DNA of 64,000 nt from NCBI GenBank assembly GCA_017609625.1, contig JAFCDN010000001.1, positions 1 to 64,000 of the forward strand, written 5' to 3'. The notes under the pieces were generated by a model. The model was not told the DNA's origin, made no database searches, and worked only from the letters and a program-made list of their open reading frames with translations. Positions 4,544 to 40,923 of this stretch are shown here, one piece after another. The position numbers and the translations under genes are program-made. The first letter of the stretch is position 1. Every line of letters starts with the position of its first letter. The stretch is from Candidatus Iainarchaeum sp. Lineage in GTDB: Archaea > Iainarchaeota > Iainarchaeia > Iainarchaeales > 1-14-0-10-31-34.

Positions 4544-4607
4544 TTTTTTTCTTTTTAAACATCCTTAGCGTTTTTTAAATTCTTCTCAACTTATTTTGAA
4601 AGGTTTT

Positions 4608-5894
4608 ATGAATTCAACCTTAATTATTGGCTCGCAGTTCGGCGACGAAGGAAAAGGAAAAATCGTTGACTGTTTGGCAGAGAAATCTGACTGTGTTGTA
4701 AGGTTCCAGGGAGCAAACAATGCAGGCCACACTGTAGTGGTTGACGGAGAAAAATTCAAACTACACCTGCTTCCTTCAGGCGTAGTAAGAAAAAAACGTT
4801 CTTTGATTGGAACTGGGGTTTGTATTGACCCAAGAGTATTAAAAAAAGAAATTGACGGGTTAAAAGAAAAAGGAATTGAAGTCAATCTTGGAATTGATCC
4901 AAGAAGCCAGATAATAATGCCCTGGCATAATGTGATTGATGTAGGAAAAGAAGAAGCACTAAAAGAAAAAAACATTGGAACCACAAGAAGAGGAGTTGGC
5001 CCGTGCTATGCTGACAGAGCTTCAAGAATTGGAATCCGTTTTGATGATTTAGTTGATGAAAACCGGTTCAAAGAAAAACTTGCATTCAATTATTCTTACT
5101 ATAAAAACATCTGTGAAAACATTTTAGGAAAAACAATAGAATTTACAGAAGAAGAAGTTTTTCAAGAATACTTTGCTTTAGGAAAAGAATTCAAAAACAT
5201 GCTTACAGATGTTTCAATTGAAGTAAATCAATTATTAGACAAAAAAAAGAAAGTATTGTTTGAAGGGGCACAGGGAACTTTATTAGACAATGATTTTGGC
5301 ACTTATCCTTTTGTTACTTCTTCTCACCCGATTTCTGGTGCGGCAACAGTTGGGGTGGGGATGTCTCCAAAAAGACTGGAAAGAATTATTGGAATAGTTA
5401 AAGCTTATACTACTAGAGTTGGTTCAGGTCCTTTTCCCACAGAACTGCATGAAAAAGAAGCAGATTTTTTAAGGAATGCAGGCAATGAATTTGGAACAAC
5501 AACCGGCAGAGCTAGAAGAGTAGGCTGGCTTGATTTGCCAATGCTTAGAATGGCCCAAAGATTAAATGGTTTTACTGAATTAGGGCTAACAAAATTAGAT
5601 GTTTTAAGTGGAATAAAAGAATTAAAAATAGCAGATTCTTACACTTTAGAAGGAAAAAAAGTTTTAGAATTTCCTTATGCAAACCATTTGGTTCAAAAAT
5701 GCAAGCCAAACTACAAAGAATTTGATGGCTTTACTTTAGAAGACAAAGAGAGAGATGAACTCAGAAAAAATGGTTTTGGCGCATTAGACGAAAACGCAAA
5801 AAAATACATTTCTTTTATTGAAAAACAACTAAAAGTTCCAATAAAAACAGTTTCTTTTGGCGCAGAAAGAAAAGACACTTTAACAAGAGATTAA
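4608..5894 (+). CDS. purA: Adenylosuccinate synthase
   Basis: GSQFGDEGKGKIVDCLAEKSDCVVRFQGANNAGHTVV, GVGMSPKR..IIGIVKAYTTRVGSGPFPTEL, TGRARRVGWLDLP. Confidence 0.95.
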   Translation: MNSTLIIGSQFGDEGKGKIVDCLAEKSDCVVRFQGANNAGHTVVVDGEKFKLHLLPSGVVRKKRSLIGTGVCIDPRVLKKEIDGLKEKGIEVNLGIDPRSQIIMPWHNVIDVGKEEALKEKNIGTTRRGVGPCYADRASRIGIRFDDLVDENRFKEKLAFNYSYYKNICENILGKTIEFTEEEVFQEYFALGKEFKNMLTDVSIEVNQLLDKKKKVLFEGAQGTLLDNDFGTYPFVTSSHPISGAATVGVGMSPKRLERIIGIVKAYTTRVGSGPFPTELHEKEADFLRNAGNEFGTTTGRARRVGWLDLPMLRMAQRLNGFTELGLTKLDVLSGIKELKIADSYTLEGKKVLEFPYANHLVQKCKPNYKEFDGFTLEDKERDELRKNGFGALDENAKKYISFIEKQLKVPIKTVSFGAERKDTLTRD

Positions 5895-7228
5895 AATTTT
5901 GTTAATTCAACAGCCTTTCCTATATATGTTTCTGGCTTTAATTTTAAAAGCTTCTTTTTTTCTTTTTCACTCAAAGAACTTTTCTTAATAAATTCTCTCA
6001 GCATTTCCAGAGAAAGTTTTTTTCCTCTGGAAAAATCTTTCAATTTCTCATAAGCATTTTCATCTTTTTCTTTCCTCATCACAGTCTGAATTGCCTCAGT
6101 TAAAGTTTCAGGGTGTTTTTTTAAATCTTCAAGTATTTCTTTTCTGTCTGCATGGATTCTTTTCAGGCCTTTAATACACATTTTTATTCCTAAAATTGAA
6201 TGAGCAAAAGCTGTTCCATAATTTCTCTTGACTGTTGAATCTGAAAGGTCGCGCTGCATTCTGGACTTTTGCAAACGAGAACTCAAAAAATACAACAGAT
6301 TATTTGCTAGTAACAGATTCCCTTCGCTGTTTTCAAACTGTATTGGGTTGATTTTATGTGGCATTATAGAAGAACCGGTTTCTTTTCCGATCTTTTTCTG
6401 TAAAACATAATTTTTGCTTATATACATCCACAAATCAGTATCTAAATCAATCACAATATTATTGAGCAAAGCCATTTCATTTAAAATTCTTGAAATATTT
6501 TCATGAACAACAATTTGGGTTGTTAAACTCTTGTGTTCAAATCCAAAGCTTTCGACAAACTCTTTGCTTAATTTTATCCAATTTTTTTCTGGAAAAGCAA
6601 TCTGCATTGAGTTAAAATTTCCTGAAGCAGAATTCATTTTTCCAGGCAGTTTTAGTTTTTTCAGGTGCTCTAAACTTTCATTTATTCTAGAATAAAAAAC
6701 TGCAATTTCTTTTCCAAAAGTTGTGGGAGAAGCAGGCTGTCCGTGTGTGTGAGCAAGCATTGCAGTTTTCTTTTCTTTAGAGGCAATTTTCTTCAAACTT
6801 TTGAGCAACCCAGAACTCTCAGTTATGTATAAGTTAAGTCCTTTTTTTAGCTGAATTGAATTAGCTAAGTTATTTACATCTTCTGATGTCAGCCCAAAAT
6901 GTACAAAACTTTCAGCATTTTTCAATGAACTTTTTTCTATTTTTTTTCTTATAAAATATTCTACTGCTTTGACATCATGATTTGTTTTTCTTTCAATCTT
7001 TTTTATCTCTTCAAAGTCTTTTTCATTAAATTTTTCATAGAGTTTTTCAAGCAGTTTTTTTTCTTTTGAGCTAAACTTTTTAATAACTCCTTTTTTTGAT
7101 AAAAAAATCAGATACTTTGCTTCAACTTCTGTACGGAATTTTTGCATTGCATATTCAGAGAAAATTTCCTGCAGTTCAATCAGTTTATTTGAATATCTTC
7201 CGTCTATTGGGGAAACAGCTTTATTCAT
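5891..7228 (-). CDS. purB: Adenylosuccinate lyase
   Basis: SPIDGRYSNK start; AHTHGQPASPTTFGKE; signature GSSIMPHKINPIQFENSEGN. Confidence 0.95.
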   Translation of the reverse strand: MNKAVSPIDGRYSNKLIELQEIFSEYAMQKFRTEVEAKYLIFLSKKGVIKKFSSKEKKLLEKLYEKFNEKDFEEIKKIERKTNHDVKAVEYFIRKKIEKSSLKNAESFVHFGLTSEDVNNLANSIQLKKGLNLYITESSGLLKSLKKIASKEKKTAMLAHTHGQPASPTTFGKEIAVFYSRINESLEHLKKLKLPGKMNSASGNFNSMQIAFPEKNWIKLSKEFVESFGFEHKSLTTQIVVHENISRILNEMALLNNIVIDLDTDLWMYISKNYVLQKKIGKETGSSIMPHKINPIQFENSEGNLLLANNLLYFLSSRLQKSRMQRDLSDSTVKRNYGTAFAHSILGIKMCIKGLKRIHADRKEILEDLKKHPETLTEAIQTVMRKEKDENAYEKLKDFSRGKKLSLEMLREFIKKSSLSEKEKKKLLKLKPETYIGKAVELTKF

Positions 7229-7343
7229 AAATAATTATGATTTGAATTGTTTTTATTGTTATTGTTTTTCCTTTTTCTAGGCGGATCAATTTAAATTCTT
7301 TAACTCCCTCAATTATATTATCTCTCTTAGAATGGTTTTTTTT

Positions 7344-8768
7344 ATGTGTGGGATAGTTGGAATAATTTCCAAGCAGGATGTTTTACCGGATGTTTTTGTC
7401 GGAATGCTTTCTTTACAGCATCGAGGACAGGATTCTGCAGGAATTATTTCTTACAACGAAAAAATGAACCTTATTAAAGATGAAGGACTTGTTTCTTCTG
7501 TTTTCACTGAAAAAGAACTGGAAAAACTTAAAGCAAATATTGCAATAGGCCATACAAGATATCCTACTGTTGGCTCTGATTTTACTATTGATGCCCAACC
7601 TTTTATGGTTTCAAAACCTTATGAAATTGGAATAGCACACAATGGAAATTTGGTGAACTACGTTGAATTAAGAAAAGAATTAAACCTAAAAAACAATTGT
7701 GTAGTTTCTTCTTGTGATGTAGAGGTAATTCTTCATGTTTTTGCGCAGGCTCTTCCAGAAGAATTTTCTGTTGAAGCATTATTTGAGGCAGTAAAAAAAG
7801 TTTTTGAAAAAGCAAAAGGAGGTTATTCTGTTTTAATGATAATTAAAGACAAAGGCATGCTTGCTTTTCGTGATCCTCGTGCAATCCGCCCTTTGGTTGT
7901 GGCAGAAAAAACAGTTGATGGAGTAGAATCAATAGCTTTTTCTTCTGAAAGCCTGCCTTTAACCACAACCGGCTTTAAACTAATTGGAAATATTGAAGCA
8001 GGAGAAGCAGTTTTTGTGAATCAAAACCTTGAAATCACTTCAAAAAAATTAGCAAAAGAAAATCCTGCTCATTGCATGTTTGAATGGGTTTATTTTTCTG
8101 CTGCAGAATCAATTTTAGAAAACTTGGAAGTTTATACTGCAAGAATTAATTTAGGAAGAGAACTGGCTGATGCATGGAAAAAAACAGGATTAAAAGCTGA
8201 TGTGGTTGTTCCTGTTCCAGACACAAGCAGAACTGCTGGTTCCAGATTAGCAGAAGAAATAGACTTGCCTTATAGGGAAGGATTAATAAAAAACAGGTAT
8301 ATTGGAAGAACTTTTATTATGGCTTCGCAAGTTAAAAGGGAAAATTCAGTAAGGCTGAAGTTAAACCCTGTAGAAAGCGAAATAAAAGGAAAAAGAATTT
8401 TGTTAGTGGATGACAGCATTGTCCGCGGAACCACTTCAAAAAAAATAGTGAAGTTATTAAAGGACCACGGAGCAGAAAAAGTTTATTTCCTTTCAACCTG
8501 CCCGCCAATAATTTCTCCTTGTTTTTATGGAATTGACATGCCTTCAAAAGCAGAATTAATTGCAGCAAGGCTTTCAGTAGAAGAAATAAGAAAAGAAATC
8601 GGTGCAGATTATTTATTGTATAATTCAGTTGATGCATTAAAAAGAGCTTTAGGAATAAAAGATTTATGTTTGGCCTGTCTTACAGGAAAATATCCTGTTT
8701 CTGTTCCAAAAGAAACAGAATCAGAATTTGAGAAAAAAAGAATTGAAGAAAGAAAAGAACACAAATAA
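7344..8768 (+). CDS. purF: Amidophosphoribosyltransferase, [4Fe-4S] type
   Basis: MCGIVGIISKQ..LQHRGQDSAGI; PRPP motif ILLVDDSIVRGTTSKKIV; putative Fe-S Cys in AHCMFEW, CFYGID and CLACLTGKYP. Confidence 0.95.
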   Translation: MCGIVGIISKQDVLPDVFVGMLSLQHRGQDSAGIISYNEKMNLIKDEGLVSSVFTEKELEKLKANIAIGHTRYPTVGSDFTIDAQPFMVSKPYEIGIAHNGNLVNYVELRKELNLKNNCVVSSCDVEVILHVFAQALPEEFSVEALFEAVKKVFEKAKGGYSVLMIIKDKGMLAFRDPRAIRPLVVAEKTVDGVESIAFSSESLPLTTTGFKLIGNIEAGEAVFVNQNLEITSKKLAKENPAHCMFEWVYFSAAESILENLEVYTARINLGRELADAWKKTGLKADVVVPVPDTSRTAGSRLAEEIDLPYREGLIKNRYIGRTFIMASQVKRENSVRLKLNPVESEIKGKRILLVDDSIVRGTTSKKIVKLLKDHGAEKVYFLSTCPPIISPCFYGIDMPSKAELIAARLSVEEIRKEIGADYLLYNSVDALKRALGIKDLCLACLTGKYPVSVPKETESEFEKKRIEERKEHK

Positions 8769-8799
8769 AAGAAAAGAAAAAAACAATAGAGGTTTTGAA

Positions 8800-9765
8800 A
8801 TGGGTTCAGTTAAAGATTTAGAAATAATAAAAAAAGCTTCAAAAGATTCTTTTGGTAAAGGAATTTTTTCTTTCACTGACGACTACAGTGTATTTGATTA
8901 TGGAAAAATGCCTGAAAAAATCCCGTTTAAAGGAGAATCTCTCTGCAGAATGGCTTCATATAATTTTGAAAAAATTGAAGAACTTGGCCTTGCATCACAT
9001 TTTGAAGAGTTTATTGAGCCAAATAAAATGAAAGTTAAATTAGTTCAGGTAATCTATCCAGACAAACAAAAATTAACAGAAAATGATTCAAATTATTTAA
9101 TCCCTTTAGAGGTTGTTTTCCGCAACATGCTTCCAGAAGGTTCTTCTTTGCTTTCCAGATTCAGAAAAGGAGAATCAACATCAGAACAATATGGTTTAGA
9201 AAAAATCCCTGAACCAAACCAATTCTTTGACAAGCCAATTTTAGAGTTTTTTACTAAACTTGAACCAATTGACAGGCTTTTGACTGAATCTGAAGCACTT
9301 GAAATAAGTGCATTAAACCAAAACGAATTAACCCAAATAAATGATTTTGCATTAAAAGTAAATAATTTTTTGAACAAAAAAGCAGAATCATTAAATTTAG
9401 TTCATGCAGACGGAAAAATTGAATTAGCTTTTTCTCCTGAAAGAAAAATTATTTTGGTTGATGTTTTTGGCACTTTAGATGAAAACAGATTTTTGTTCAA
9501 TAACATTCATGTAAGCAAGCAGGTTGCAAGAGATTATTATAATACAACTTCCTGGAAACAGGAATTAACAGATGCAATGAAACAAGGAAAACAAAAAGAA
9601 GAATGGCCTGCCCCGCCAGAACTCCCTGTAAAACTCTTAGAACTCATTTCAGAATTCTACCTCTCAACCGCACAGGAATGGACTGGAGAAAACTTTGCTT
9701 CTGCTCGTCCGCTGGAAAAAGTTGTTTTAGAATATAAAGAGTTAAAAGAGAAAAATAATTGGTAG
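8800..9765 (+). CDS. purC: Phosphoribosylaminoimidazole-succinocarboxamide synthase
   Basis: GKGIFSFTDDYSVFDYGKMPEKIPFKGESLCRMASYNFEKIEE, VVFRNMLPEGSSLLSR; SAICAR synthetase fold motifs. Confidence 0.9.
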   Translation: MGSVKDLEIIKKASKDSFGKGIFSFTDDYSVFDYGKMPEKIPFKGESLCRMASYNFEKIEELGLASHFEEFIEPNKMKVKLVQVIYPDKQKLTENDSNYLIPLEVVFRNMLPEGSSLLSRFRKGESTSEQYGLEKIPEPNQFFDKPILEFFTKLEPIDRLLTESEALEISALNQNELTQINDFALKVNNFLNKKAESLNLVHADGKIELAFSPERKIILVDVFGTLDENRFLFNNIHVSKQVARDYYNTTSWKQELTDAMKQGKQKEEWPAPPELPVKLLELISEFYLSTAQEWTGENFASARPLEKVVLEYKELKEKNNW

Positions 9766-10122
9766 TTATTTTTTATTTTTTTTTTCTTTAGTTTTGCGTT
9801 GTTCTGTTCGTGTTCTAACTCGGCCAGAGCCGTATTTGTGGATTTTTAGTCTTCGGTCTTTAATAAGAAAACCCTCTTTTCCACCAGGTGTTTCGTAAAG
9901 CCCTTCTACTTCTGCAAGATTTCTCTCAGTGCTAAGAGTCCCTTTCTGGCGCCTTCTGATTGCGCGATTCTTTGCAAGACCAAACAAACCAGCCCCAAAA
10001 ACAGGCTTGCGTCGTATACGGCTGGCTAGACTCCGTATTTTTCTAGCTTGGATATCTGGGGGGTGTCTTCTTCTTTCAGCAGGTTTTCCTTTTCTTGTAA
10101 CAGGTCTTTTTGCTGTTGCCAT
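9766..10122 (-). CDS. Hypothetical highly basic protein
   Basis: 118 aa, Arg/Lys-rich throughout (KPAERRRHPPDIQARKIRSLASRIRRKP); no family recognised. Confidence 0.55.
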   Translation of the reverse strand: MATAKRPVTRKGKPAERRRHPPDIQARKIRSLASRIRRKPVFGAGLFGLAKNRAIRRRQKGTLSTERNLAEVEGLYETPGGKEGFLIKDRRLKIHKYGSGRVRTRTEQRKTKEKKNKK

Positions 10123-10193
10123 GTTTTAATAATAAACTTAGATTTATTTAAACATTTGCATTCAGTTTATATATTACTTAAAAAAGTGGTTGA

Positions 10194-10574
10194 ATGAAAG
10201 TCGCAATTGTAATGGGTTCTGAATCTGATAAAAAGATTGCAGAAAAAGCAGAAAAGGTTTTGAAAGAAAACAAGATTCCTTTTACAACTTTTGTTGCTTC
10301 TGCGCACAGAAACCCTAAAAAAGTAAAAGAAATTGCAGGAAAAGATTTTGATGTGTTTATTGCAATAGCAGGTTTAAGTGCTGCACTTCCAGGAGTAATT
10401 GCTTCTCATACAAAAAAGCCTGTAATTGGCGTTCCAGTTTCCTCTAAATTAGGAGGCTTAGATGCCTTGCTGGCTATTGCACAGATGCCTAAAGGAGTGC
10501 CGGTTGCCTGTGTAGGCATTGACAATGCACAAAACGCTGCTTTTCTTGCAATCCGTATACTAAAATCAAAATGA
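10194..10574 (+). CDS. purE: 5-(carboxyamino)imidazole ribonucleotide mutase (PurE)
   Basis: [72 protein letters not shown]. Confidence 0.93.
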
Positions 10575-10655
10575 TTTTAATTCCTTTACTCAATAATTAT
10601 TTATGTTGCAAAGAATATTATCTAATTCTATCCTTAATTTTATGGAGGCAGCTAA

Positions 10656-12185
10656 ATGATTGCAGTAATCAACTTTGGAGGCCAGTATTGCCATTTGATT
10701 GCAAGAAAAATACGGGAGCAGGGAGTTAAGGCAGAAATCTTTCCTCATACAATTTCTGCTTCAAAATTAAAGAAATCTTTTCCAGAAGGAGTAGTTCTTT
10801 CAGGAGGCCCTGCAAGTGTTAATGCAGAAAACACCCCAAAAATGGATTTAAAGATTTTAGATTTAGAAATCCCTGTTTTGGGAATCTGTTATGGAATGCA
10901 GTTGATTGCTCAAGGCTTAAACGGAACAGTGGGAAAAGGAAAATCAAAAGAATATGGAAAAAATATTATTTCAGTTAAAGGCAATGACCCTTTGTTTAAA
11001 GGACTAAAAAAAGAGCAGGTATGGCTTTCTCATTTTGATACGGTAAAAAAACTTCCAAAAGATTTTTCTGTTTCTTCTTCAACAAAAACCTGTAAAATTT
11101 GTTCAATGTATTCTTTAAAGAAAAAAATGTTTGGTTTGCAGTTTCATCCTGAAGTGCATCACACTCCAAAAGGAAAAAAAATTCTGGAAAACTTTTTGAA
11201 GATATGCAAAGCAAAAAAGAACTGGAAAATTCCTTCTTTGATAAAATCAATTCAAAAGCAAATCAAGCAAACAATTGGAAAAGAAAAAATAATTATGGGT
11301 GTTTCTGGAGGAGTAGATTCTTTAGTTGCTTCAGCTTTAATTCATAAAACAATCCCAAACCAGTTATTTTGTGTTTTTATTAACAATGGTTTAATGAGAA
11401 AAAACGAAACAAAATACATTCAATCTTTATATAAAAAAATGGGTTTTAAGCATTTTTTTGTTGTTGATGCAGCAGAAGAATTTGTTTTTGCTTTAGAAGG
11501 AGTTTCTGATCCAGAAGAAAAAAGAAAAATTATTGGCCATACTTTTATTCATGTTTTTGAAGAAAAAGCAGCCAAGTTAGAGGAAAAATTCGGTAAAATC
11601 TCTTTTTTAGGACAAGGAACAATTTATCCAGACAGGATTGAATCAGCCGAGCCTTCAGCTGAAGCTTCAAAAATAAAATCTCACCACAATTTAACCCTCC
11701 CAGAACAGATGAACTTAAATTTAATTGAGCCTTTAAGAGACTTTTATAAAGATGAAATAAGAAAAATTGGTTTAAGCCTGAAAATTAAAAAAGAATTTTT
11801 ATTCAGGCATCCTTTCCCTGGCCCTGGTTTGGCTGTTAGAATCTTAGGAGAAGTCTCTGCAGAAAAACTTTCTATTTTAAGAGAAGTTGATTCAATTTTT
11901 ATTGAAGAATTAAAGAAAAACAAGTTTTACGACAAAACTTGGCAGGCTTTTGCAGTTATATTTCCTGTAAAAGCTGTAGGAGTTAAAGGAGATGAAAGAA
12001 GCTATTCTTTTATTGTTGCATTGCGTGCAGTGAATTCTGTTGATGGAATGACTGCAGACTGGACCAGAATTCCAGAACTTTTGCTTGAAAAAATCTCTTC
12101 CCGAATCTTAAACGAAGTTCCTGAAGTCGGCAGGATTTTGTATGACATTTCACAAAAACCTCCTGCAACAATAGAATTTGAGTGA
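10656..12185 (+). CDS. guaA: GMP synthase, fused glutaminase + ATP-PPase
   Basis: 509 aa: GATase (GICYGMQLIAQGLNG; GLQFHPEVHHT) fused to PP-loop ATPase (IMGVSGGVDSLVASALI) and dimerisation tail (NEVPEVGRILYDISQKPPATIEFE). Confidence 0.95.
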   Translation: MIAVINFGGQYCHLIARKIREQGVKAEIFPHTISASKLKKSFPEGVVLSGGPASVNAENTPKMDLKILDLEIPVLGICYGMQLIAQGLNGTVGKGKSKEYGKNIISVKGNDPLFKGLKKEQVWLSHFDTVKKLPKDFSVSSSTKTCKICSMYSLKKKMFGLQFHPEVHHTPKGKKILENFLKICKAKKNWKIPSLIKSIQKQIKQTIGKEKIIMGVSGGVDSLVASALIHKTIPNQLFCVFINNGLMRKNETKYIQSLYKKMGFKHFFVVDAAEEFVFALEGVSDPEEKRKIIGHTFIHVFEEKAAKLEEKFGKISFLGQGTIYPDRIESAEPSAEASKIKSHHNLTLPEQMNLNLIEPLRDFYKDEIRKIGLSLKIKKEFLFRHPFPGPGLAVRILGEVSAEKLSILREVDSIFIEELKKNKFYDKTWQAFAVIFPVKAVGVKGDERSYSFIVALRAVNSVDGMTADWTRIPELLLEKISSRILNEVPEVGRILYDISQKPPATIEFE

Positions 12186-12539: not shown

Positions 12540-14165
12540 TTAGTTTTTCACGCTTTCTTCCAGTTTTTTTATTACTTTATCTTTTCCTATTGCAATGATT
12601 AATTGCCCTAATTTTGGCCCGAATTTTTTTTCAATTAAAGTCTGATAAAATTCTGTGAATAGTTTTTTTGAAGGAATGTTTTTTGTTTTTCCTATTTCAA
12701 AAATCTTCTGCTGAATTTCTTCAGTCTTGTCTGTTTTCTTTAAAACTTTAATTGCTTCTAAAAAAACTTCTTTCATTTCTTCTGAAACAGAACTTGTTTT
12801 TTCAGAAAAAACTATTCTGCTTTCTTCTGGCGCGTATTTTTCAAGCCACACTTTAGACAATTCAATTCTTTCATTTAATGCGTTTAATTCGTCTTTTGAA
12901 TTTGAATCAATTTTATTTAATTCTTTTAATTTGTTTATTATGGCTTCTTTTTTATAAAATCCGTTTAAAAAAGAACATAAAGCATAGTCTGCCTGCAAGG
13001 GAACAAGTTTTCTGTCTTTGACTTTAACAAATTCTGAATAAGTTTTGTTTTTTAACTGCTCTACGTCATTCCCTGTTTTTTTTTCTGCGTTTTCTATTAC
13101 TCTGTCTAATTCCAGTTCCATTAATGGAACATCTTTCCATTCAAAACTCCTTGTTTTCATCAATCTTTTCATATACAAGTATTTGAGTGTTTCCGGCCGG
13201 CTTACTTTTAGCCAGTCTGCTGGATAAACTACATTGCCTAGTGAAGCACTCATTTTTGTTCCGCCGATAATTAAATGCTCGTAAAATATCGGCTCTGGAT
13301 AAGGAAAATTCAAAACCTTTTCTGTAATTTCTGCATTAACCCAGAAAGCAGAGTTTCTGCTTTCGTATTCTTTTCCTGCTCCTTCTGAACAGACTTTCCA
13401 TCTTTTCCATTGTGCTGCCCATTCACTTTTCCATATAAGTTTTCCGTTTGGTTTCTTTAAATCTGAAATTCCTTTATGCCCGCATCCTTTTGCAGTAAAT
13501 TTTTCGAATTTATAATCCTGGCATTTATAGTGAATTTTTTTTCCTTCAACTTTTGTTATTGTTGTTGTCTGCAGGTTTCCACATTTTTCGCAGATTGGTT
13601 TCCATACGCTCCAGTTTTTTCCTACTTTGCTTTCTTGTGTTTTTTCTATTATTTCTTTTACTTTTTCCCTGTTTTTAACCAGATCAAGAATTTCCTGGTT
13701 AAAGTTTCCTTTTTTGTATTCTTTTCTCATTGAATAAACTTTTGGTTTTATTGAAAGAAATTTTTCAAACACTTCCAGGAATTCTGAAGTAAAATGTTCT
13801 GCATAGCTTTTGTGGCATCCTTTTGGGTCAGGCACATCTGATACAGGAAATCCAATATATTGTTCAAATTCTTTTGGCACGCCGGCAGGAATTTTTCTTA
13901 GCGGATCCATGTCTTCTGTTACATAAATAAAGTCTGCATTAAACCCTGCTTTTTCTAATGCTCTTGCTTGTGCTTCTACTCTGATGATATCTGACAGTCT
14001 TCCAATATGCAGTACGCCTGATAAAGAAGAAGAGCTTTTTACTGTCCAGTTTTTTTCTTCTGGAATTTTTTGTTCTGTAAAGTGAAGTTTTTTTCTTTTA
14101 ATTATTTTTTCTGCTATTTCTTCTGCCCAAAAAACCCATTTAGCCAAATAAACACCTATACACAA
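12540..14165 (-). CDS. lysS: Lysine--tRNA ligase, class I
   Basis: 541 aa; class I signatures SGVLHIGRLSDIIR and TKMSASLGNVVYPADWL; Cys pairs CEKCGNLQ..CGHKG. Confidence 0.92.
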   Translation of the reverse strand: MCIGVYLAKWVFWAEEIAEKIIKRKKLHFTEQKIPEEKNWTVKSSSSLSGVLHIGRLSDIIRVEAQARALEKAGFNADFIYVTEDMDPLRKIPAGVPKEFEQYIGFPVSDVPDPKGCHKSYAEHFTSEFLEVFEKFLSIKPKVYSMRKEYKKGNFNQEILDLVKNREKVKEIIEKTQESKVGKNWSVWKPICEKCGNLQTTTITKVEGKKIHYKCQDYKFEKFTAKGCGHKGISDLKKPNGKLIWKSEWAAQWKRWKVCSEGAGKEYESRNSAFWVNAEITEKVLNFPYPEPIFYEHLIIGGTKMSASLGNVVYPADWLKVSRPETLKYLYMKRLMKTRSFEWKDVPLMELELDRVIENAEKKTGNDVEQLKNKTYSEFVKVKDRKLVPLQADYALCSFLNGFYKKEAIINKLKELNKIDSNSKDELNALNERIELSKVWLEKYAPEESRIVFSEKTSSVSEEMKEVFLEAIKVLKKTDKTEEIQQKIFEIGKTKNIPSKKLFTEFYQTLIEKKFGPKLGQLIIAIGKDKVIKKLEESVKN

Positions 14166-14202: not shown

Positions 14203-14946
14203 CTAGGATTCATCATATGCTTCTTCTATTCCATGCACTTTTATTCCTGTTTTTCCTATTGTAACCGGATGCAGATCTTCTGAATGTTTTGTTGCCCTCA
14301 TTTTTCTGATATGAATTGTTCTGTTTGTTCCTCCGCCTCCAATACCTGAATAATGCAATACTACTACTCCGTCTACAACATATTCTTCCACTTCATATCT
14401 TCCGAATTTTGCTGCGCCTTCTTGTATTTCTGAAGTCATTATTGAAGTTACTCCAATCCGCATCAGCATATAGCTTAATTTTAGTATTGCTTTTCTTGTT
14501 TCCTGTTCGTTTTCAAAGTTAAATCCTAATGCAGGAATTGAATCTATAACTGCTCTTTTTGCGCCCATTCTTTTTGTTACCCGCATTATCTCTAGTAAAA
14601 GCTTGTCTAAATCAAATCCTGTCATAGGTAAAGAGAATTCTTCGTCTGATGGCATTCCTATTCTTGCAACGCTTCCGTCTATTATGGTTATTAATTTTTT
14701 TTCTTCTAATTTTCTTAAATCCCAGCCAAACCTGGTTACATCTTCTCTTATCAGTTCTGGCCGTTCGTCTAAAGTAACATAGATTCCTGGTTCATTATAT
14801 TTTACTGCTCCATTGTAAATGTACTGCATTGAAAAAATTGTTTTTCCTGTTCCGCAGGCTCCTGAAACAAGGATTGCTCTTTTTTCTGGAAACCCTCCTT
14901 CCATTAATTCATCCAATCCAGTTATTCCTGTTTTAATTCTTTTCAT
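14203..14946 (-). CDS. KaiC-like RecA-family ATPase
   Basis: TGITGLDELMEGGFPEKRAILVSGACGTGKTIFSMQYIYNGA; VIDSIPAL. Confidence 0.9.
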   Translation of the reverse strand: MKRIKTGITGLDELMEGGFPEKRAILVSGACGTGKTIFSMQYIYNGAVKYNEPGIYVTLDERPELIREDVTRFGWDLRKLEEKKLITIIDGSVARIGMPSDEEFSLPMTGFDLDKLLLEIMRVTKRMGAKRAVIDSIPALGFNFENEQETRKAILKLSYMLMRIGVTSIMTSEIQEGAAKFGRYEVEEYVVDGVVVLHYSGIGGGGTNRTIHIRKMRATKHSEDLHPVTIGKTGIKVHGIEEAYDES

Positions 14947-15012: not shown

Positions 15013-16839
15013 TTAACCCCTGTTAACCTCTTTTACTCCGTCTATTTTTCTTATTTTTTCCACAATTTTCCTTATTTTTTCTGGTTTTTTTGTCTGAAGA
15101 ACAAAATTGCATGAAATGTTTTCTTTTTCAACTTTCGCGTCAGTTGAAATAACTTTTCCTTTCATTGAAGCAATTACATCTAGAATCTCTGTTAATAAAT
15201 TAATTCTTTCTTTTGCTTTTATTTTTATTTCTGCGCTTAATTCTCTTTTTCCGATCATTTCCCAGTTTATTGGAATGACTTTTTTTTGGTCTTCTCTTTT
15301 CAAGTTCTTACAATTTTCCATGTGAACAGTTAACTTCCTTTTTGTTGTTTTTATTGCATAAATTTTGTCTCCTGGAATCGGGTTGCAGCACCTTGATATT
15401 TTTATTGATTCAATTATTTTTTTTGATATTTTTTTTGGTTCTTTTTTGGTTTTCTTTTCTTTTTTTATTTTTAAAAACTGCCTTATTCTTGTTTTTGCCT
15501 TGTTTGTTTTCACTATGGTTAGCCACTGGCTTTTTGGAACCTGTTTTTTTGAAGTTATTATTTCAACTACGTCTCCATTATCCAATTCATAATCCAAGGA
15601 AACAATTTTCCCGTTAACTAATGTTTTTTCACAAGTGTTCCCTATGTTTGGATGAATTGCATAAGCAAAATCTAAAGGAGTTGCTCCTGGAACTAGTTCT
15701 ATTATATCTGAATTAGGGGTTAATACAAAAATCTTTTTTTCTTCAAACCTTAATTTCAGTGATTCAAGTATTTTTTTTGATTTACTTTTCCGGCTCCATT
15801 TAATCAGTTGCCTTGCCCAAGTAAGTTCTGAATCAAACTCTTTGTCTTTTTTAATGTCTTTGTACAGCCAGTGTGCAGGGGTTCCTTCTTCTGCTTCTGC
15901 ATGCATTTTCCAGGTTCTTATTTGCGCTTCAAATACTCTTCCATCAGCAGTTTTCAGGTCTGTGTGAATTGACCTGTAATTGTTTTTTTTCGGGGTTGCA
16001 ATATAATCATCAAAAGAATTAAGCAAAGATTCATACATTGCATGCAGTATTCCAAGAATAATATAGCATTCTTTTACTGTATCGCAGATTATTCTTATTG
16101 CAATTAAATCATGCACCCCCTTTAGCTTGCATTTTTTTCTTTTCATTTTTTTGTGTATTCCATAAAGGTTTTTTACTCTCCCGATAACTTTTGCATTTAT
16201 GTTTTCTTTTTTCAGGGTTTTTTTTATTTCATTTTCTATTTTTTTCAAATCATTTTCTCGGTCATTTCTGTTTCTTTTCAGAATGTTTTTCATTTTTTGG
16301 TAGTTTTCCTGCTCTAAAATTTTAAATGAAAGGTCTTCCAGTTCCCAGGCAACTTCTTCCAAACCAATTTTTTGGCTGATCGGAAGGAAAACAGCTTTAA
16401 CTAGTTTTGCCAGTTCTTTGTCGTCTTTTTTTGATCTTCTCATTTTTGCAAGCTTTAATGCAAGAACCATTATTGTTGTCCTGACATCCTGTGTTGTTGC
16501 AAGAATTATTTTGCTTAAAGTTTCTGCATCAAAGTTTTTTTTCTGGTTTTCTATTTTTCTTATTTTCCTTATTGATTCAACCAGATTTTTTGTTTCTTCT
16601 GTAAACTCTTTTTTTATTTCCTCCTGGTTCATTTTTGTTTCAAACAACAGCACTGCAGAAATGCTTGCGTCCTTTAACCCTAAAGAGTTCAAAAGATGAG
16701 CTGTATTAAGCAGGCAGGTAAAATTTTCTTTATTAAGCTCTTTTTCAGAAACCTTAACTGCTTTTTTTATCAATCCTATTTCAAAGCTTTTTTTAAGGCT
16801 TTTCAGAAATTCTTCCTGTGAAACATTTTTGTACTTCAT
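15013..16839 (-). CDS. RelA/SpoT homologue (degenerate HD, synthetase, TGS, Cys motif, ACT)
   Basis: 608 aa: synthetase motifs VHDLIAIRII, DDYIATPKKNNYRSIHT, FEAQIRTWKMHAEAEEGTPAHWLYK; TGS IFVLTPNSDIIELVPGATPLDFAYAIHPNIG; ISRCCNPIPGD; C-terminal ACT-like repeat. Confidence 0.93.
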   Translation of the reverse strand: MKYKNVSQEEFLKSLKKSFEIGLIKKAVKVSEKELNKENFTCLLNTAHLLNSLGLKDASISAVLLFETKMNQEEIKKEFTEETKNLVESIRKIRKIENQKKNFDAETLSKIILATTQDVRTTIMVLALKLAKMRRSKKDDKELAKLVKAVFLPISQKIGLEEVAWELEDLSFKILEQENYQKMKNILKRNRNDRENDLKKIENEIKKTLKKENINAKVIGRVKNLYGIHKKMKRKKCKLKGVHDLIAIRIICDTVKECYIILGILHAMYESLLNSFDDYIATPKKNNYRSIHTDLKTADGRVFEAQIRTWKMHAEAEEGTPAHWLYKDIKKDKEFDSELTWARQLIKWSRKSKSKKILESLKLRFEEKKIFVLTPNSDIIELVPGATPLDFAYAIHPNIGNTCEKTLVNGKIVSLDYELDNGDVVEIITSKKQVPKSQWLTIVKTNKAKTRIRQFLKIKKEKKTKKEPKKISKKIIESIKISRCCNPIPGDKIYAIKTTKRKLTVHMENCKNLKREDQKKVIPINWEMIGKRELSAEIKIKAKERINLLTEILDVIASMKGKVISTDAKVEKENISCNFVLQTKKPEKIRKIVEKIRKIDGVKEVNRG

Positions 16840-16903
16840 TTCATAATATTCTTTTATAAAAAGGTTTTAATTCTCTTTTCTGCTAATTCATACAGTGTTT
16901 TTG

Positions 16904-17629
16904 ATGTTGATTGCAGGAAATTGGAAAATGAACAAAAACCCAAAGGAAACAAAAGAGTTTTTTAAAGAATTCAATAAACTCTTAAAGACAAAAAACAAAG
17001 TTCTTTTGTGCCCTTCTTTTCCTTGTATTCCAATTGCAAGAGAAGCAGCTTCAAAAAACATTTCCATTGGTGCGCAAGATGTTTTTTTTGAAGAAAAAGG
17101 AGAATTTACTGGAGAAGTCTCTCTTTCCCAGATAAAAGATTCCTGTAATTTTGTTATTTTAGGCCATTCAGACAGAAGACACAAATTCTCTGAATCAAAC
17201 CAAACAATAAACAAAAAAGTTCAAGTTTCATTAAAAGCAGGCTTTAATGTAATCCTTTGCATTGGAGAAACTTTAGAGGAAAGAAACTCTGCAAAAACAA
17301 ATTTTGTTTTGGAAAAACAATTAAAAGAATCTCTTTTAGGAATTTCTTTTTCTTCAAAGCTTTTCATTGCTTATGAACCTGTCTGGGCAATAGGAACAGG
17401 AAAAAACGCGATTTCAAAAGACATCATTTCAGCCCATTCTTTTATTAAAGAAAAATTAATAGAAATATTGGGAAAAAAAGCAAATCAAATTAAAATCCTT
17501 TATGGTGGAAGCGTTAAACCAGAAAACGCAAAAGAAATTCTTTTACTTAAAGAAGTTGGCGGAGTTTTAGTTGGCGGGGCTTCTTTAGATCCACAGAAGT
17601 TTGCCTTTATAGCTAACTATAAAAAATAA
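16904..17629 (+). CDS. tpiA: Triosephosphate isomerase (bacterial/eukaryotic-length type)
   Basis: MLIAGNWKMNK, VILGHSDRR, AYEPVWAIGTGK, LYGGSVKPENAKEI, VGGASLDPQKF. Confidence 0.93.
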   Translation: MLIAGNWKMNKNPKETKEFFKEFNKLLKTKNKVLLCPSFPCIPIAREAASKNISIGAQDVFFEEKGEFTGEVSLSQIKDSCNFVILGHSDRRHKFSESNQTINKKVQVSLKAGFNVILCIGETLEERNSAKTNFVLEKQLKESLLGISFSSKLFIAYEPVWAIGTGKNAISKDIISAHSFIKEKLIEILGKKANQIKILYGGSVKPENAKEILLLKEVGGVLVGGASLDPQKFAFIANYKK

Positions 17630-34725: not shown

Positions 34726-35021
34726 TGGAAATAGCAATAATAGGTTCAGATGATTTTGTAACAGGTTTTCGTTTAGCCGGAGTCAGAAACATTTTCCCGG
34801 TAAAAAATGATTTTGATTTACAAATAAACAGCGCTATAGAAAAAGAACAAATTGGTGTTATAGTGGTTGAACAAGAAGAATTAGACAAAACTTCTCATAA
34901 AACAAAAAGAATGTTAGAAAAGCTTATTACTCCGGTTCTGATAACCCTTTCCTCTAAGGGAAAAGAAACGGATTTAAGAGAATTAATCAAAAGGACGGTT
35001 GGTGTAGATTTATGGAAATAG
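34725..35021 (+). CDS. atpF: A-type ATP synthase subunit F
   Basis: [24 protein letters not shown]. Confidence 0.9.
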
Positions 35022-38000
35022 CAAAAATATACAGAATCTCAGGTCCTGTTGTAACCGCAAAAGGACTTAAAGCAAAAATGTATGACTTAGTTAAAGCAGG
35101 AAAAGAAGAATTAATGGGAGAAGTAATTCAAATCGATGGAGACAAAACAACAATCCAGGTTTATGAAGACACTTCTGGAGTAAAACCAGGAGAGCCGGTA
35201 AAAAACACAGGTGCTCCGCTTTCAATTGAATTAGGACCTGGCTTATTAACAACAATTTATGACGGAATCCAAAGGCCTCTTCCAACTTTAGTAGAACAGA
35301 TGGGAAACTTTATTGAAAGAGGAATTTCTGTTCCAGGATTAGACAGAAAAAAGAAATGGAACTTTAAACCAACCGTAAAAAAAGGAGAAAAAGTTTCTGG
35401 AGGAGATGTAATTGGAACAGTTCAAGAAACAAAAAACATCACACACAAAATTTTGGTTCCTCCAACAATTTCAGGAAAAATAAAAGAAATAAAATCAGGT
35501 TCTTTTACTGTAACAGCAATAGTTGCAGTTTTAGATAACGGAAAAAAACTTTCTTTAATGCATGAATGGCCTGTAAGAAAACCAAGACCTTATGCAGAAA
35601 AATTAATGCCAACTGTTCCTTTAATCACCGGACAAAGAATTCTTGATTCTTTATTTCCAATAGCAAAAGGAGGAGCAGGAAGTATTCCAGGGCCATTTGG
35701 AAGCGGAAAATGCATAAGCGCAGACACAACAATTCTAGCAAACAACCAACTCATTCCAATAAAAGAAGCTTTTGAAAAAGAATTTTCCAACAAAGAAAAC
35801 CAGATTCAAGAAACTGAAGAAGAAACAATAATTGAACTAAAAGAACCAGTTGAAGTTTTTTCTTTCGATGGAAAGGAAATAAAAGAATCCCTTGCAACAC
35901 ACTTTTACAGAGGCAAAACAGAAAAATTAATTGAAATAAAAACCAGAAGCGGAAAAACAGTTAAACTAACTCCGATCCATAAACTATTCAAATTGAACCA
36001 AAGGCTGGAGATAGAAGAAACTCTTGCAATGAATTTGCAGGAAGGAGATTATCTAATCTCTCCAAGAAAAATTCCTTTCCAGACAGCTTTACAGGAAATA
36101 ACAATAAATTTCAACTGCAGAATTTCAGATGAAAAAGCAATCCAGAAAATGAAATCCATTATAGAGCAGGAATGCAAAAGCAAAGCAATTACAAAAAAAC
36201 AATTAGCTTCAGAATTGAATGTTTCCTATGATTCAATTATAGCATTTTACACTGGAAAAAACAAACCAACCTTTGATTTTATAAAAAAACTAGAAGCATT
36301 TTCAGACAAAAAAATCCCCTTCACTGAAATCAAAACTGAAAGGCAATCAAAATCAATCAAAATACCAGAATATTTTAATGAAGAATTCTCTGAATTGCTT
36401 GGCTTATTAATGGCTGATGGTTCAATTAAAGGAAAAGGAGTAATTGAATTCTACAACAAAAATCCTGTTTTAAGAAACAGGGCAAAATTTTTGTTAAAAA
36501 AACTATTCAATTTAGATTCAAAAGAAATTTATGCAAGAACAGTTGAAGCCATAACAGTTCCAAGTGTGCCATTGGCAAAACTTTTGAATTCTTTTGGTTT
36601 TCCTTTAAAGAAAAAATCAAGAAACTTAGTTCTTCCAAAACAATTACTTTCTTCTCCAGAAAATGTTTGCAATGAATTCCTAAAAGCTTACATCGCCTGT
36701 GATGGCCATGTTTCAAAGACAGATATAGAAATTGCAACTGCTTCAGAAAAAATGCAGTCAGGCTTATCATACTTGCTGACAAAAATAGGAATTTTGCACA
36801 CTACAAAACACAAGCTTGTAGATTCCACTAAGTATTTTAGAATTTTTATTGCCCCAAAAGAAGCAAACAAAATTAATTCGTATTACTCCAAAAAATATTA
36901 TTACACTTCCAAAGACATTGTTCCGATGACTCCTTCTTTATTCAAGGAAATGCTTCAAGAAACAAAACCTTGGCAACTGCAAAAGACAAGTATTTCAACA
37001 ACTGCTTTTTACAAGCAGGCCAATCAGACAGCAACAACCTTTCAGGAAGTAATAAAACAATTAGGAATTCAAGGTCATTTATATGAATTTGCCCAAGCAT
37101 TAGAACATGTTTTTTGTGATGAAGTCCTAGAAGTAAAAGAAATAAATTCAGAAGAGTTTGTTTTTGATTTGACTGTTCCTTTAACCCATAATTTTGTTTC
37201 AGGAAATTCTCCAATGATATTGCACAATACAGTAACCCAACAGCAGTTAGCAAAATGGAGTGACGCAGAAATTGTAGTTTACATTGGATGCGGAGAAAGA
37301 GGAAATGAAATGACTGAAGTATTGCATGAGTTTCCTGAATTATTAGATGTAAAAACCGGCAGGCCGTTAATGGAAAGAACAGTCTTAATTGCAAACACTT
37401 CAAATATGCCTGTTGCAGCAAGAGAAGCTTCAGTTTACACTGGAATGACTATGGCAGAATATTTTAGAGACCAAGGATTTGATGTAAGCTTAATGGCAGA
37501 TTCTACTTCTCGTTGGGCTGAAGCAATGAGAGAAATTTCTTCTAGATTAGAAGAAATGCCAGGAGAAGAAGGATATCCTGCATATTTAGCAGCAAGACTT
37601 TCAGAATTTTATGAAAGAGCCGGAAGAATAAATGTTTTAGGTTCAAGAAAAGAAACAGGTTCAGTTACAGCAATCGGAGCTGTCTCACCACCAGGAGGAG
37701 ACTTTTCTGAACCAGTAACACAAAACACATTAAAGATCACTAAAGTGTTTTGGGCTTTAGATGCAAAGCTTGCTCAAAGAAGGCACTTTCCTTCAATCAA
37801 CTGGCTTGACAGTTATAGCCTTTACTCTACATTATTAGAAAACTGGTTTGTAGAAAATGTTGCAAAAGACTGGGTTAAAATCAGAACTCAAGTAATGAAA
37901 ATTTTGCAGAAAGAATCTTCTTTGCAGGAAATTGTTCAGTTAATTGGTTCAGATGCTTTGCCTGAAAAAGAACAATTAACAATGGAAGTTGCAAGACTGA

Positions 38001-38272
38001 TTCGAGAAGGATTTTTGCAGCAAAACGCATTCCATGAAGTTGATGCTTACTGCAGTATGAAAAAACAATATGGAATTTTAAAAGGAATTATTTCTTTTTC
38101 TGAACAGGCACAAACAGCAATTGAAGTCGGTGCTCCAATAGAAAACATAATTAAAATGAAATCAAAAGCAAGATTGACAAAAATCTGTTTAGTAAAAGAA
38201 GAAAACTTTGAAAAAGAAATGAATAAAATAATGGGTGAAGTAAAAGAGGAATTCAAAAATATAAACAAATAA
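35012..38272 (+). CDS. atpA: A-type ATP synthase catalytic subunit A with intein
   Basis: 1086 aa; GPFGSGK interrupted by an intein, then [32 protein letters not shown]. Confidence 0.96.
35711..37228 (+). other. Intein in AtpA (506 aa) with LAGLIDADG endonuclease domain
   Basis: C1 ([21 protein letters not shown]) to [11 protein letters not shown] / +1 Thr; endonuclease motifs [13 protein letters not shown] and [14 protein letters not shown]. Confidence 0.95.
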
Positions 38273-38310: not shown

Positions 38311-40923
38311 ATGAAAGAATATAAAACAATTGAAAAAATCGCAGGACCATTAATTTTTGTAAAAAAAACAGGCCCAATTGGATATGGGGAATTAGTTAAA
38401 ATAAAATTAGGGGACGGCACAATAAAAAACGGCCAAGTATTAGACACTTCAGATGATGTGGTTGTTGTTCAGGTTTTTGAAGGAACCTCTGCAATAGACA
38501 GAGGCTCTATAGTAAAATTCACCGGAGATACAATAAAACTAAAAGTCTCTAAAGATTTGCTTGGAAGAGTTCTTTCTGGTTTAGGAGAACCAATTGACAA
38601 TGGTCCAAGAATAATTCCAGATAAAGAATTAGATATTATTGGTTCTGCAATAAACCCTTATGCAAGAAGCTCTCCAAAAGATTTTGTCCAGACAGGTTTA
38701 TCAACTATTGATGGAATGAACACTCTGGTAAAAGGACAAAAATTGCCAATTTTTTCTGGTTCAGGTTTGCCTCATAATGACATTGCATTGCAAATCGCAA
38801 GACAGGCAAAAGTTGAAGGAAACTTTGCAGTTGTTTTTGCTGCAATGGGAATCACAAACGAAGAAGCCCAGCAATTCCAGCGCGACTTTGAACAAACAGG
38901 CGCATTAGAAAGAACAATAATGTTTTTGAATTTAGCAAATGACCCTGCAATTGAAAGATTGATTGCTCCAAGGATGGCTTTAACTGCAGCAGAATATTTA
39001 GCTTACACTCATGATATGCACGTACTAGTAATTTTAACAGATATGACAAACTATTGTGAAGCTTTAAGAGAAATCGGCGCAGCAAGAGAAGAAGTTCCAG
39101 GAAGAAGAGGTTATCCAGGTTATATGTACAGCGTAGACGGAAGCAGAAATATTGTTGTTCAAAACCCCGAAGGGGAAATAAAAATTTTGCCCATAAACGA
39201 GTTTTTCAAAAAAACGAGTGAAAAAAACCAAGCGGTCAAAAGCAAAGATGAATATGAGGAAAGAATTAACATTAGTGAATGGAAAGCATTAAGCTCTCTT
39301 AAAGACGGAACATCAGTATTCAGGCCGATAAAACAAGTAATAAGACACAAATACAAGGGAAAAATGTGTAAGCTTACAACCCAAACAGGAGAAACAATTG
39401 TTACTCCAAACCACAGTGTTTTTACAATAAATGAAAACAAGGAAATAGTTCCAGTTATTGCAGAAAATCTTTCTGTTGGTGATTTGCTTGCACACGCTCA
39501 CAATCTTCCTGCAACAGCAACAAGCACTAACAATAAATTAAGTGTAGAATTAGCAAGGCTTGCTGGCTATTATGTTGCAGAAGGCCATGCAATAAAATAT
39601 TTAGACAAAGTGAAAAATTGCTGGTGTCATTATGTAAGAATTGACAACAATTCGCAAGAAATGATTGACGATATGGTAGGTTGTTATGAAAAAGAGTTTG
39701 CCCACAAACCCTCAGTTTTTGTTTCAGATAAGCGTTCAGGCACTATAAGAACTTCTATTGGAGGGAAAAAATACTATGATGCATTTGTAAATGATCTTGA
39801 TTGTGGCCATAGTTCTTATGCTAAAGGAATTCCATCACAAGTATTTTCTGCAGAACCAGAAGTTCAACAAGCCTTTTTTGATTCATATTATTTAGGCGAT
39901 GGCAAAGCAACAGATTCTCGTTATAACATAATACAGTATGATATGGTTACAATAAGCCCTAAATTAAGAGACGGACTGATGCTGCTTTCAAGAAAATTGT
40001 ATCCAGAAAGAGTTCCAACTTTATACAAGTGGAAAGGCAGAGACGCTTGGAAGGTTTATCTTTCAACTTACCTCAAAGGAAAACATGAATTTGTAAATGA
40101 TGTTCTTGCAGCAGAAATAAAAAAAATTGAATTTGTGGAACCAACAGAAGAATTTGTCTATGATCTTAGCGTTGAAGAAACTCAAAATTTTGTTGATGCA
40201 TGCGGGAATGTCTTATTGCATAATACAGACCTTGCTTCAATTTATGAAAGAGCAGGATTAATTAAAGGAAAAAAAGGTTCTGTAACCCAAATTCCAATCT
40301 TAACAATGCCTGGAGATGATATAACCCATCCAATACCTGATTTAACAGGCTATATTACTGAAGGACAGATTGTTTTAGGAAGAGATTTGCATATGAAAGG
40401 AATTTACCCCCCAATTGATGTTCTTCCCTGCCTTTCAAGATTAATGAATGCAGGAATTGGCAAAAAGAATACAAGAGATGACCATAAAGCTGTTTCAAAT
40501 CAATTATATGCAGGCTATGCTGAAGGACGTTCTTTGCGTGGATTAGTTGCAATTGTTGGAGAAGAAGCTTTAAGTGAAAGAGACAGAGGTTTTTTGAAGT
40601 TTGCAGAACAATTTGAAGAGCAATTTATTACTCAAGGAAAATATGAAGACAGGACAATTTTTGACACTCTAAACTTAGGCTGGGATTTATTGTCTGCTTT
40701 ACCAACATCTGAACTCACAAGAATCGATGATGAATTAATCGAAAAATACTTAGACAAAAACAAGCGGCCAAAAGAAAAACCTGTTGAAACAAAAGAGGTA
40801 AAGAAAGAAGAATCAAAGAAACCAGAACCAATCCAAACAAATAATAAAAATTTAGATAAAAAAAATTCTAAACCTTCAAACAAGAAAAAAAATTCAAAGA
40901 AAAATAAGAAAAAGAAAAAGTGA
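38311..40923 (+). CDS. atpB: A-type ATP synthase regulatory subunit B with intein and Lys-rich C-tail
   Basis: 870 aa; [13 protein letters not shown] // [36 protein letters not shown]; tail [21 protein letters not shown]. Confidence 0.95.
39130..40224 (+). other. Intein in AtpB (365 aa) with LAGLIDADG endonuclease domain
   Basis: S1 ([26 protein letters not shown]) to [11 protein letters not shown] / +1 Thr; motifs [13 protein letters not shown] and [14 protein letters not shown]. Confidence 0.95.

Follow-up and report, generated by a model that had tools for sequence, protein, structure and literature searches.

Complementary loss of hydrolase and synthetase sites in two long RelA/SpoT homologues of Diapherotrites archaea

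Introduction

The closest described counterparts of the archaeal proteins considered here are the long RelA/SpoT homologues (RSH) of bacteria. Rel[HS] enzymes keep both active sites, those of the hydrolase (HD) and alarmone synthetase (SYN) domains, intact in one protein. RelA[hS] of beta- and gammaproteobacteria has an inactivated HD and an intact SYN, together with the TGS His, the CC zinc finger and the ACT domain, and an acidic ExDD motif often replaces RxKD. A complete split has been described before in Moraxellaceae (Acinetobacter and Psychrobacter), where an [hS] protein is paired with a SpoT[Hs] that retains the HD and has a destroyed SYN; the same study, Atkinson et al. 2011, saw no bacterium with RelA[hS] or a small synthetase on its own (PMC3153485). 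Work on E. coli RelA and B. subtilis Rel has shown that the TGS His recognizes the CCA end of the tRNA and that activation is abolished when this His is mutated; starved ribosomes are bound through the CC zinc finger, and the substitution D264G kills synthesis (PMC7058999).

RelA/SpoT genes were reported in 69% of Diapherotrites, with a predicted bacterial origin (PMC8407392), and their presence in the phylum is thus already published. The archaea examined to date have yielded no (p)ppGpp, although H. volcanii and S. acidocaldarius are themselves without RSH (PMC8646023). A literature search returned no measured RSH activity or (p)ppGpp for any member of the phylum, and in the open-licence literature we found no description of an archaeal RSH split or of a link between KaiC and RSH.

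Here we analyse RSH-A, a protein encoded in a 64,000-nucleotide stretch of archaeal DNA (the window), along with its relatives. The features read directly are presence, residues, domain conservation, co-occurrence, gene order and selection. They point to RSH-A as the likely synthesis half of an archaeal two-protein (p)ppGpp system, which would have arisen from a duplicated bifunctional long RSH through complementary loss, and in which a second protein, RSH-B, most likely removes the alarmone.

Results

The host genome (G000) is that of a Diapherotrites-group archaeon, assembled into 70 contigs totalling 1.35 Mb and 91.7% complete. An earlier note on this DNA had named bacterial contamination as grounds for rejecting its reading. 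We exclude this because archaeal marker genes (A-type ATP synthase subunits, class-I LysRS and SRP54) lie on the contig and because independent genomes from 17 families have the locus too. The closest named relative, at 63% identity, comes from 'Candidatus Diapherotrites archaeon CG10_big_fil_rev_8_21_14_0_10_31_34' (PFAI01000015.1), and the same protein is carried by G003, a genome in the genus of G000. As a separate observation, inteins with LAGLIDADG domains are present in each of the two catalytic A-type ATP synthase subunits (window 35012-38272 and 38311-40923, +).

RSH-A has the domain order HD-SYN-TGS-ZFD-ACT (Pfam: RelA_SpoT 4e-35, TGS 2e-19, HD_4 1e-15, ACT_4 5e-10; Table 1), and by its Pfam domains it belongs, as does RSH-B, to the long RSH superfamily. 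The synthetase, TGS, CC and ACT motifs that the earlier note had quoted as preserved are all present. Structure prediction, proposed there as a check, agreed: an AlphaFold model built with 47 relatives had a mean pLDDT of 85.2, and its top Foldseek matches were RelA, Rel and SpoT structures, with RelA and Rel as the nearest solved relatives. The models of both RSH-A and RSH-B have the Rel/RelA/SpoT fold (matches to 5iqr, 6yxa and 7qpr).

Table 1 Features of the RSH-A locus in the window and the RSH-B gene of the same genome.
Feature	Position	Strand	Remarks
RSH-A, long RelA/SpoT homologue, predicted synthetase-only [hS]	15013..16839	-	ORF, 608 aa, ATG start
Degenerate HD (pseudo-hydrolase) domain of RSH-A, residues about 23-160	16360..16773	-	Every metal and catalytic residue gone
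SYN (alarmone synthetase) domain of RSH-A, residues about 205-328	15856..16227	-	Catalytic set intact; SFDD at RxKD position
TGS domain of RSH-A, residues 370-429	15553..15732	-	Conserved tRNA-CCA-sensing His is H396
Zinc-finger-like CC region of RSH-A, residues about 480-515	15295..15402	-	C484, C485, H506 and C510 invariant
ACT/RRM domain of RSH-A, residues 533-607	15019..15243	-	Pfam
KaiC (CI-like) single-domain ATPase, directly downstream of RSH-A	14203..14946	-	PF06745 1e-75; nearest PDB KaiC, PH0186
Class-I lysyl-tRNA synthetase, next gene, same strand	12540..14165	-	Near RSH-A in 5 families
RSH-B, second long RSH, 599 aa	G000:C58, L002:826-2625		HD complete, SYN destroyed

We read the HD and SYN residues against E. 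coli SpoT and RelA (L146, L147). We take RelSeq R241, D264, E323 and Y308 to be functional residues of SYN, and the metal ligands to be those of the HD. At the positions of E. coli SpoT R39, H48, H72, D73, E76, D77, D139, R140 and N143, where bacterial Rel/SpoT reads RHHDEDDRN, RSH-A reads '-CFE--LKK'. The erosion of the hydrolase signature described in the earlier note thus extends to all catalytic residues, and none of the four metal ligands is left. Nor is an intact site hidden elsewhere in the N-terminus, since residues 1-190 contain a single His and the sole 'HD' dipeptide (residue 243) falls in SYN. The SYN positions checked are all kept except for a Ser-to-Gly change and the altered RxKD motif. 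At the level of sequence, this confirms that a genuine archaeal genome encodes a long RSH whose HD is dead and whose SYN is intact. If RelA is a guide, the acidic SFDD/ExDD motif points to a preference for GDP (PMC3153485), of which it would not be a strict marker. We also asked whether the motif signals that the HD has been lost and rejected this as non-specific, as the bifunctional archaeal G144 has GxDD and several RSH-A have K first.

When the entire host genome was searched, RelA_SpoT and HD_4 each matched exactly two proteins, and the two pairs turned out to be identical. Besides RSH-A the pair comprises RSH-B, its mirror image. The HD set of RSH-B is complete (RHHDEDDKN), and in SYN Glu323 is replaced by Lys and Arg241 is lost; the TGS His has become Asp and the CC motif is absent. 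The RSH-B model (pLDDT 83.4) matches the Rel catalytic domains of 7oiw with a TM score of 0.93, normalised to the target, and also matches MESH1. RSH-B is most likely an alarmone hydrolase, and its SYN could still bind nucleotide because D264 and mostly Y308 are retained among its relatives. Its HD aligns to that of the small alarmone hydrolase MESH1/SAH; unlike that protein, it is a full-length RSH with a SYN remnant, TGS and ACT. No stand-alone MESH1-type hydrolase was found in the genome, where PF13328 matches only RSH-A and RSH-B; the remaining HD-type (PF01966) matches are two unassigned proteins on contig C2. The earlier proposal of a synthase without a hydrolase therefore describes the protein, whose own HD is dead, and about 27 relatives with RSH-A in which no RSH-type hydrolase was found; it does not describe this genome, which encodes RSH-B.

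Long RSH enzymes had been called uncommon in archaea, which holds for archaea generally but not for the Diapherotrites phylum, where RelA_SpoT was matched in 65 of the 87 genomes. RSH-A is present in 62 of the 87 and RSH-B in 35, all of which also encode RSH-A; RSH-B without RSH-A was seen in none. In an alignment of 60 RSH-A and 34 RSH-B proteins, the complete HD metal set (H48/H72/D73/D139) occurs in 0/60 RSH-A and 33/34 RSH-B, the exception being truncated, and the SYN Glu (RelSeq E323) in 60/60 and 0/34, respectively (K in 32, D in 1, R in 1). The SYN Arg (R241) follows the same division (60/60 versus 4/34), as do the TGS His (60/60 versus 3/34) and the CC motif (58/60, the two without it being short, versus 0/34). 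No RSH-A or RSH-B has both sites intact in one protein. As the pattern of HD lost and SYN kept recurs in 60 homologues, chance can be excluded as its cause.

One may postulate that the split is incomplete, such that RSH-A hydrolyses weakly or RSH-B synthesizes weakly, in the manner of E. coli SpoT, which retains weak synthesis. Some RSH-A proteins do keep part of the HD set (RHHDDEASN in G066, RHHDDRGAN in G001), and RSH-B retains SYN D264 in 34/34 and Y308 in 31/34 proteins. We nevertheless regard this as very unlikely, given that no RSH-A has the four metal ligands, the window's protein having lost every one, and no RSH-B has the SYN Glu.

Complementary loss is also reflected in sequence conservation. 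Between families, HD identity is 23.5% for RSH-A versus 46.7% for RSH-B, with RSH-B higher in 358/358 genome pairs, and SYN identity is 47.6% for RSH-A versus 37.4% for RSH-B, with RSH-A higher in 98% of pairs; for bacterial bifunctional enzymes the values are 53% (HD) and 50% (SYN). dN/dS among close pairs indicated purifying selection wherever it could be estimated, strongest on the SYN of RSH-A (omega 0.07-0.22, and 0.07-0.12 in genomes without RSH-B). The dead HD of RSH-A is constrained as well (omega 0.09-0.42), consistent with a structural role. Two further forms were observed. In family f3, RSH-A is shortened to about 460 aa (L043:5618-7006, -, G006) and keeps SYN and the TGS His but not the CC motif; its gene directly follows a LeuRS gene. 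The third type is a stand-alone protein of about 360 aa that resembles a synthetase, has its SYN motifs intact and ends in a conserved C-terminal region; it turns up here and there in several families and also beyond the phylum (L138, L139, L140, L141, L142, L135, L064, L066, L154, L155).

RSH-A shares with RelA[hS] the inactivated HD, intact SYN, TGS His, CC zinc finger, ACT and, often, the acidic motif, and RSH-B shares with SpoT[Hs] of Moraxellaceae (L177) the intact HD, the destroyed SYN and an [hS] partner. These resemblances do not extend to the phylogeny. The bacterial enzymes, Rel, SpoT and RelA alike, group in a single clade (98/98) that excludes RSH-A, RSH-B and the sequences of other archaea, and RSH-B forms one clade of its own (100/100). 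RSH-A, archaeal and about 610 aa long compared with 744 aa in RelA, is a separate lineage whose HD was lost through different substitutions family by family; it does not branch with beta- or gammaproteobacterial RelA, which is nested in bacteria. RSH-B likewise differs in tree position from Moraxellaceae SpoT and is encoded after argS; it lacks the CC motif, which Acinetobacter SpoT keeps, and usually the TGS His. A search of viral contigs with RSH-A recovered RelA/Rel-like sequences, several of them HD-dead and mostly near contig ends, that group with bacteria; adding ten of these, several HD-dead, left the bacterial clade at 94/95.

An alternative scenario is that the two archaeal proteins entered by separate horizontal transfers, the donors being proteobacteria in which RelA and SpoT already existed. 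The identical division of domains, the RelA-like acidic ExDD/SxDD motif of many RSH-A and the bacterial origin predicted for DPANN RelA/SpoT (PMC8407392) all accord with this. Gammaproteobacterial RelA and SpoT, however, lie within bacteria and away from both archaeal proteins, RSH-B does not fall in the SpoT clade, and forcing it together with gammaproteobacterial SpoT was rejected (AU p 0.005). Forcing RSH-A with gammaproteobacterial RelA gave AU p 0.035 on SYN-TGS alone and, with the HD included in the alignment, p 0.099, which is not a rejection; the acidic motif itself also occurs in the bifunctional archaeal G144. Taken together, we consider separate transfer highly improbable. Because gammaproteobacterial RelA and SpoT fall among the bacterial sequences in the trees, a convergent origin of the RelA/SpoT-like split in archaea is favoured. 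RSH-A was recovered as a single clade in 11% of bootstraps, and neither this clade (AU p 0.26) nor a clade uniting RSH-A and RSH-B (AU p 0.26) was rejected; a single duplication giving the two as sisters is plausible.

Gene order was also compared across the phylum. A KaiC-like gene lies downstream of RSH-A at 56/63 loci and in 15/17 families, 52 of them on the same strand and 35 within 400 nt, an arrangement that would be expected were RSH-A chiefly a partner of this ATPase rather than a stringent-response enzyme. Such a role seems improbable to us: the same orthologue also occurs in genomes without RSH-A (families f20, f21 and f23), so that a dedicated link is unsupported by presence and absence despite the strong gene order; in families f6, f7 and f10 the two genes are mostly 2.4-4.8 kb apart; and the order may simply be inherited. 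The RSH-A-linked ATPase is itself mostly 60-94% identical across the phylum, far above RSH-A, and is a core gene even where RSH is absent.

In a comparison that took in the host locus and L098:7185-8891, the RSH-B gene immediately follows argS, with the strand shared, at 26/34 loci and in 10/11 families, and the two genes are usually a few nucleotides apart or overlapping; LeuRS and AlaRS often come next in the neighbourhood. The exception is family f5, in which RSH-B is also mostly shorter. The aminoacyl-tRNA synthetase contexts of RSH-A and RSH-B fit a role in translation stress. A search for NFACT (PF05833) yielded nothing useful.

The purine context noted earlier is present near RSH-A, with purA, a purB-like lyase, purF, purE and guaA clustered at window 4596-12185. 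Proximity to guaA and the pur genes is conserved only in family f1 (4 genomes), the window's own, to which adjoining guaA and purE are specific; it is therefore weak evidence of a functional link, and we set it aside. On the other side of RSH-A, at window 16895-17629 (+), the window's genus has a bacterial-looking type of triosephosphate isomerase (TIM), whereas in the majority of the other families this divergent position is occupied by a TIM of archaeal type, an apparent in-place replacement.

RSH-A occurs without RSH-B or any other RSH-type hydrolase that we could find in 27 genomes, two of them at least 97% complete. In these two, G035 (one contig, 99% complete) and G057 (97%), the only HD_4 match is the eroded domain of RSH-A itself. 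Many of the other genomes are less complete, and some absences of RSH-B may therefore be assembly gaps. Among other archaeal phyla, the single-copy long RSH of G144, G164 and G255 is bifunctional, sharing the domain order and fold of RSH-A and RSH-B and, like bacterial Rel[HS], differing from them in that both sites are intact in one protein. The single long RSH of G184 has a damaged HD and that of G273 a dead one, each with SYN intact; the two proteins (L150 and L152) group together in the tree, and no second HD_4 protein was found in either genome, both of which are 100% complete. A non-RSH hydrolase may act in these archaea, as generic HD-domain proteins occur in all four (G035, G057, G184 and G273).

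Genomes with RSH-A and no such hydrolase would be easier to explain if RSH-A made another nucleotide, for example (p)ppApp, or were a non-catalytic ribosome or tRNA sensor. The conservation of (p)ppGpp-synthetase residues, including the guanine-stacking Tyr in 60/60 RSH-A, and the strong purifying selection on its SYN weigh against both, and we give this explanation little chance of being correct.

Discussion

We return to RSH-A as the probable synthetase of a two-protein (p)ppGpp system. The most likely route to this system is that a bifunctional long RSH duplicated and its copies then lost complementary functions, giving RSH-A and RSH-B. Since SYN, the TGS His, the Cys-Cys zinc-finger region and ACT are all retained in RSH-A, it most likely works like RelA. 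Its autoinhibition would be relieved when deacylated tRNA is present on a starved ribosome, whereupon SYN would transfer pyrophosphate from ATP to GDP or GTP, the HD serving as a non-catalytic scaffold. RSH-B would act as a (p)ppGpp hydrolase uncoupled from the tRNA and ribosome sensor. In this scheme enzyme activities, tRNA sensing, GDP preference and physiological targets are inferred.

A bolder interpretation is that the archaeal stringent response is convergently split and that the Diapherotrites G035 and G057, together with G184 and G273 from other archaea, keep an active synthetase without any RSH hydrolase. We put this forward tentatively, as an idea that is somewhat doubtful. If RSH-A is active, these archaea would be exceptions to the rule, published for bacteria, that a synthetase never occurs alone.

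A conserved complementary pair offers a direct way, with two genes, to test for (p)ppGpp as a stress signal in archaea. In this conserved and selected pair the ribosome-sensing parts are confined to the synthetase, and the pair represents a second, apparently independent division of labour of the RelA/SpoT kind. The lineages with RSH-A alone offer a test of whether alarmone synthesis requires an RSH hydrolase; if the bolder interpretation is true, the published rule would be broken, and the alarmone would be removed in these lineages by an unknown route.
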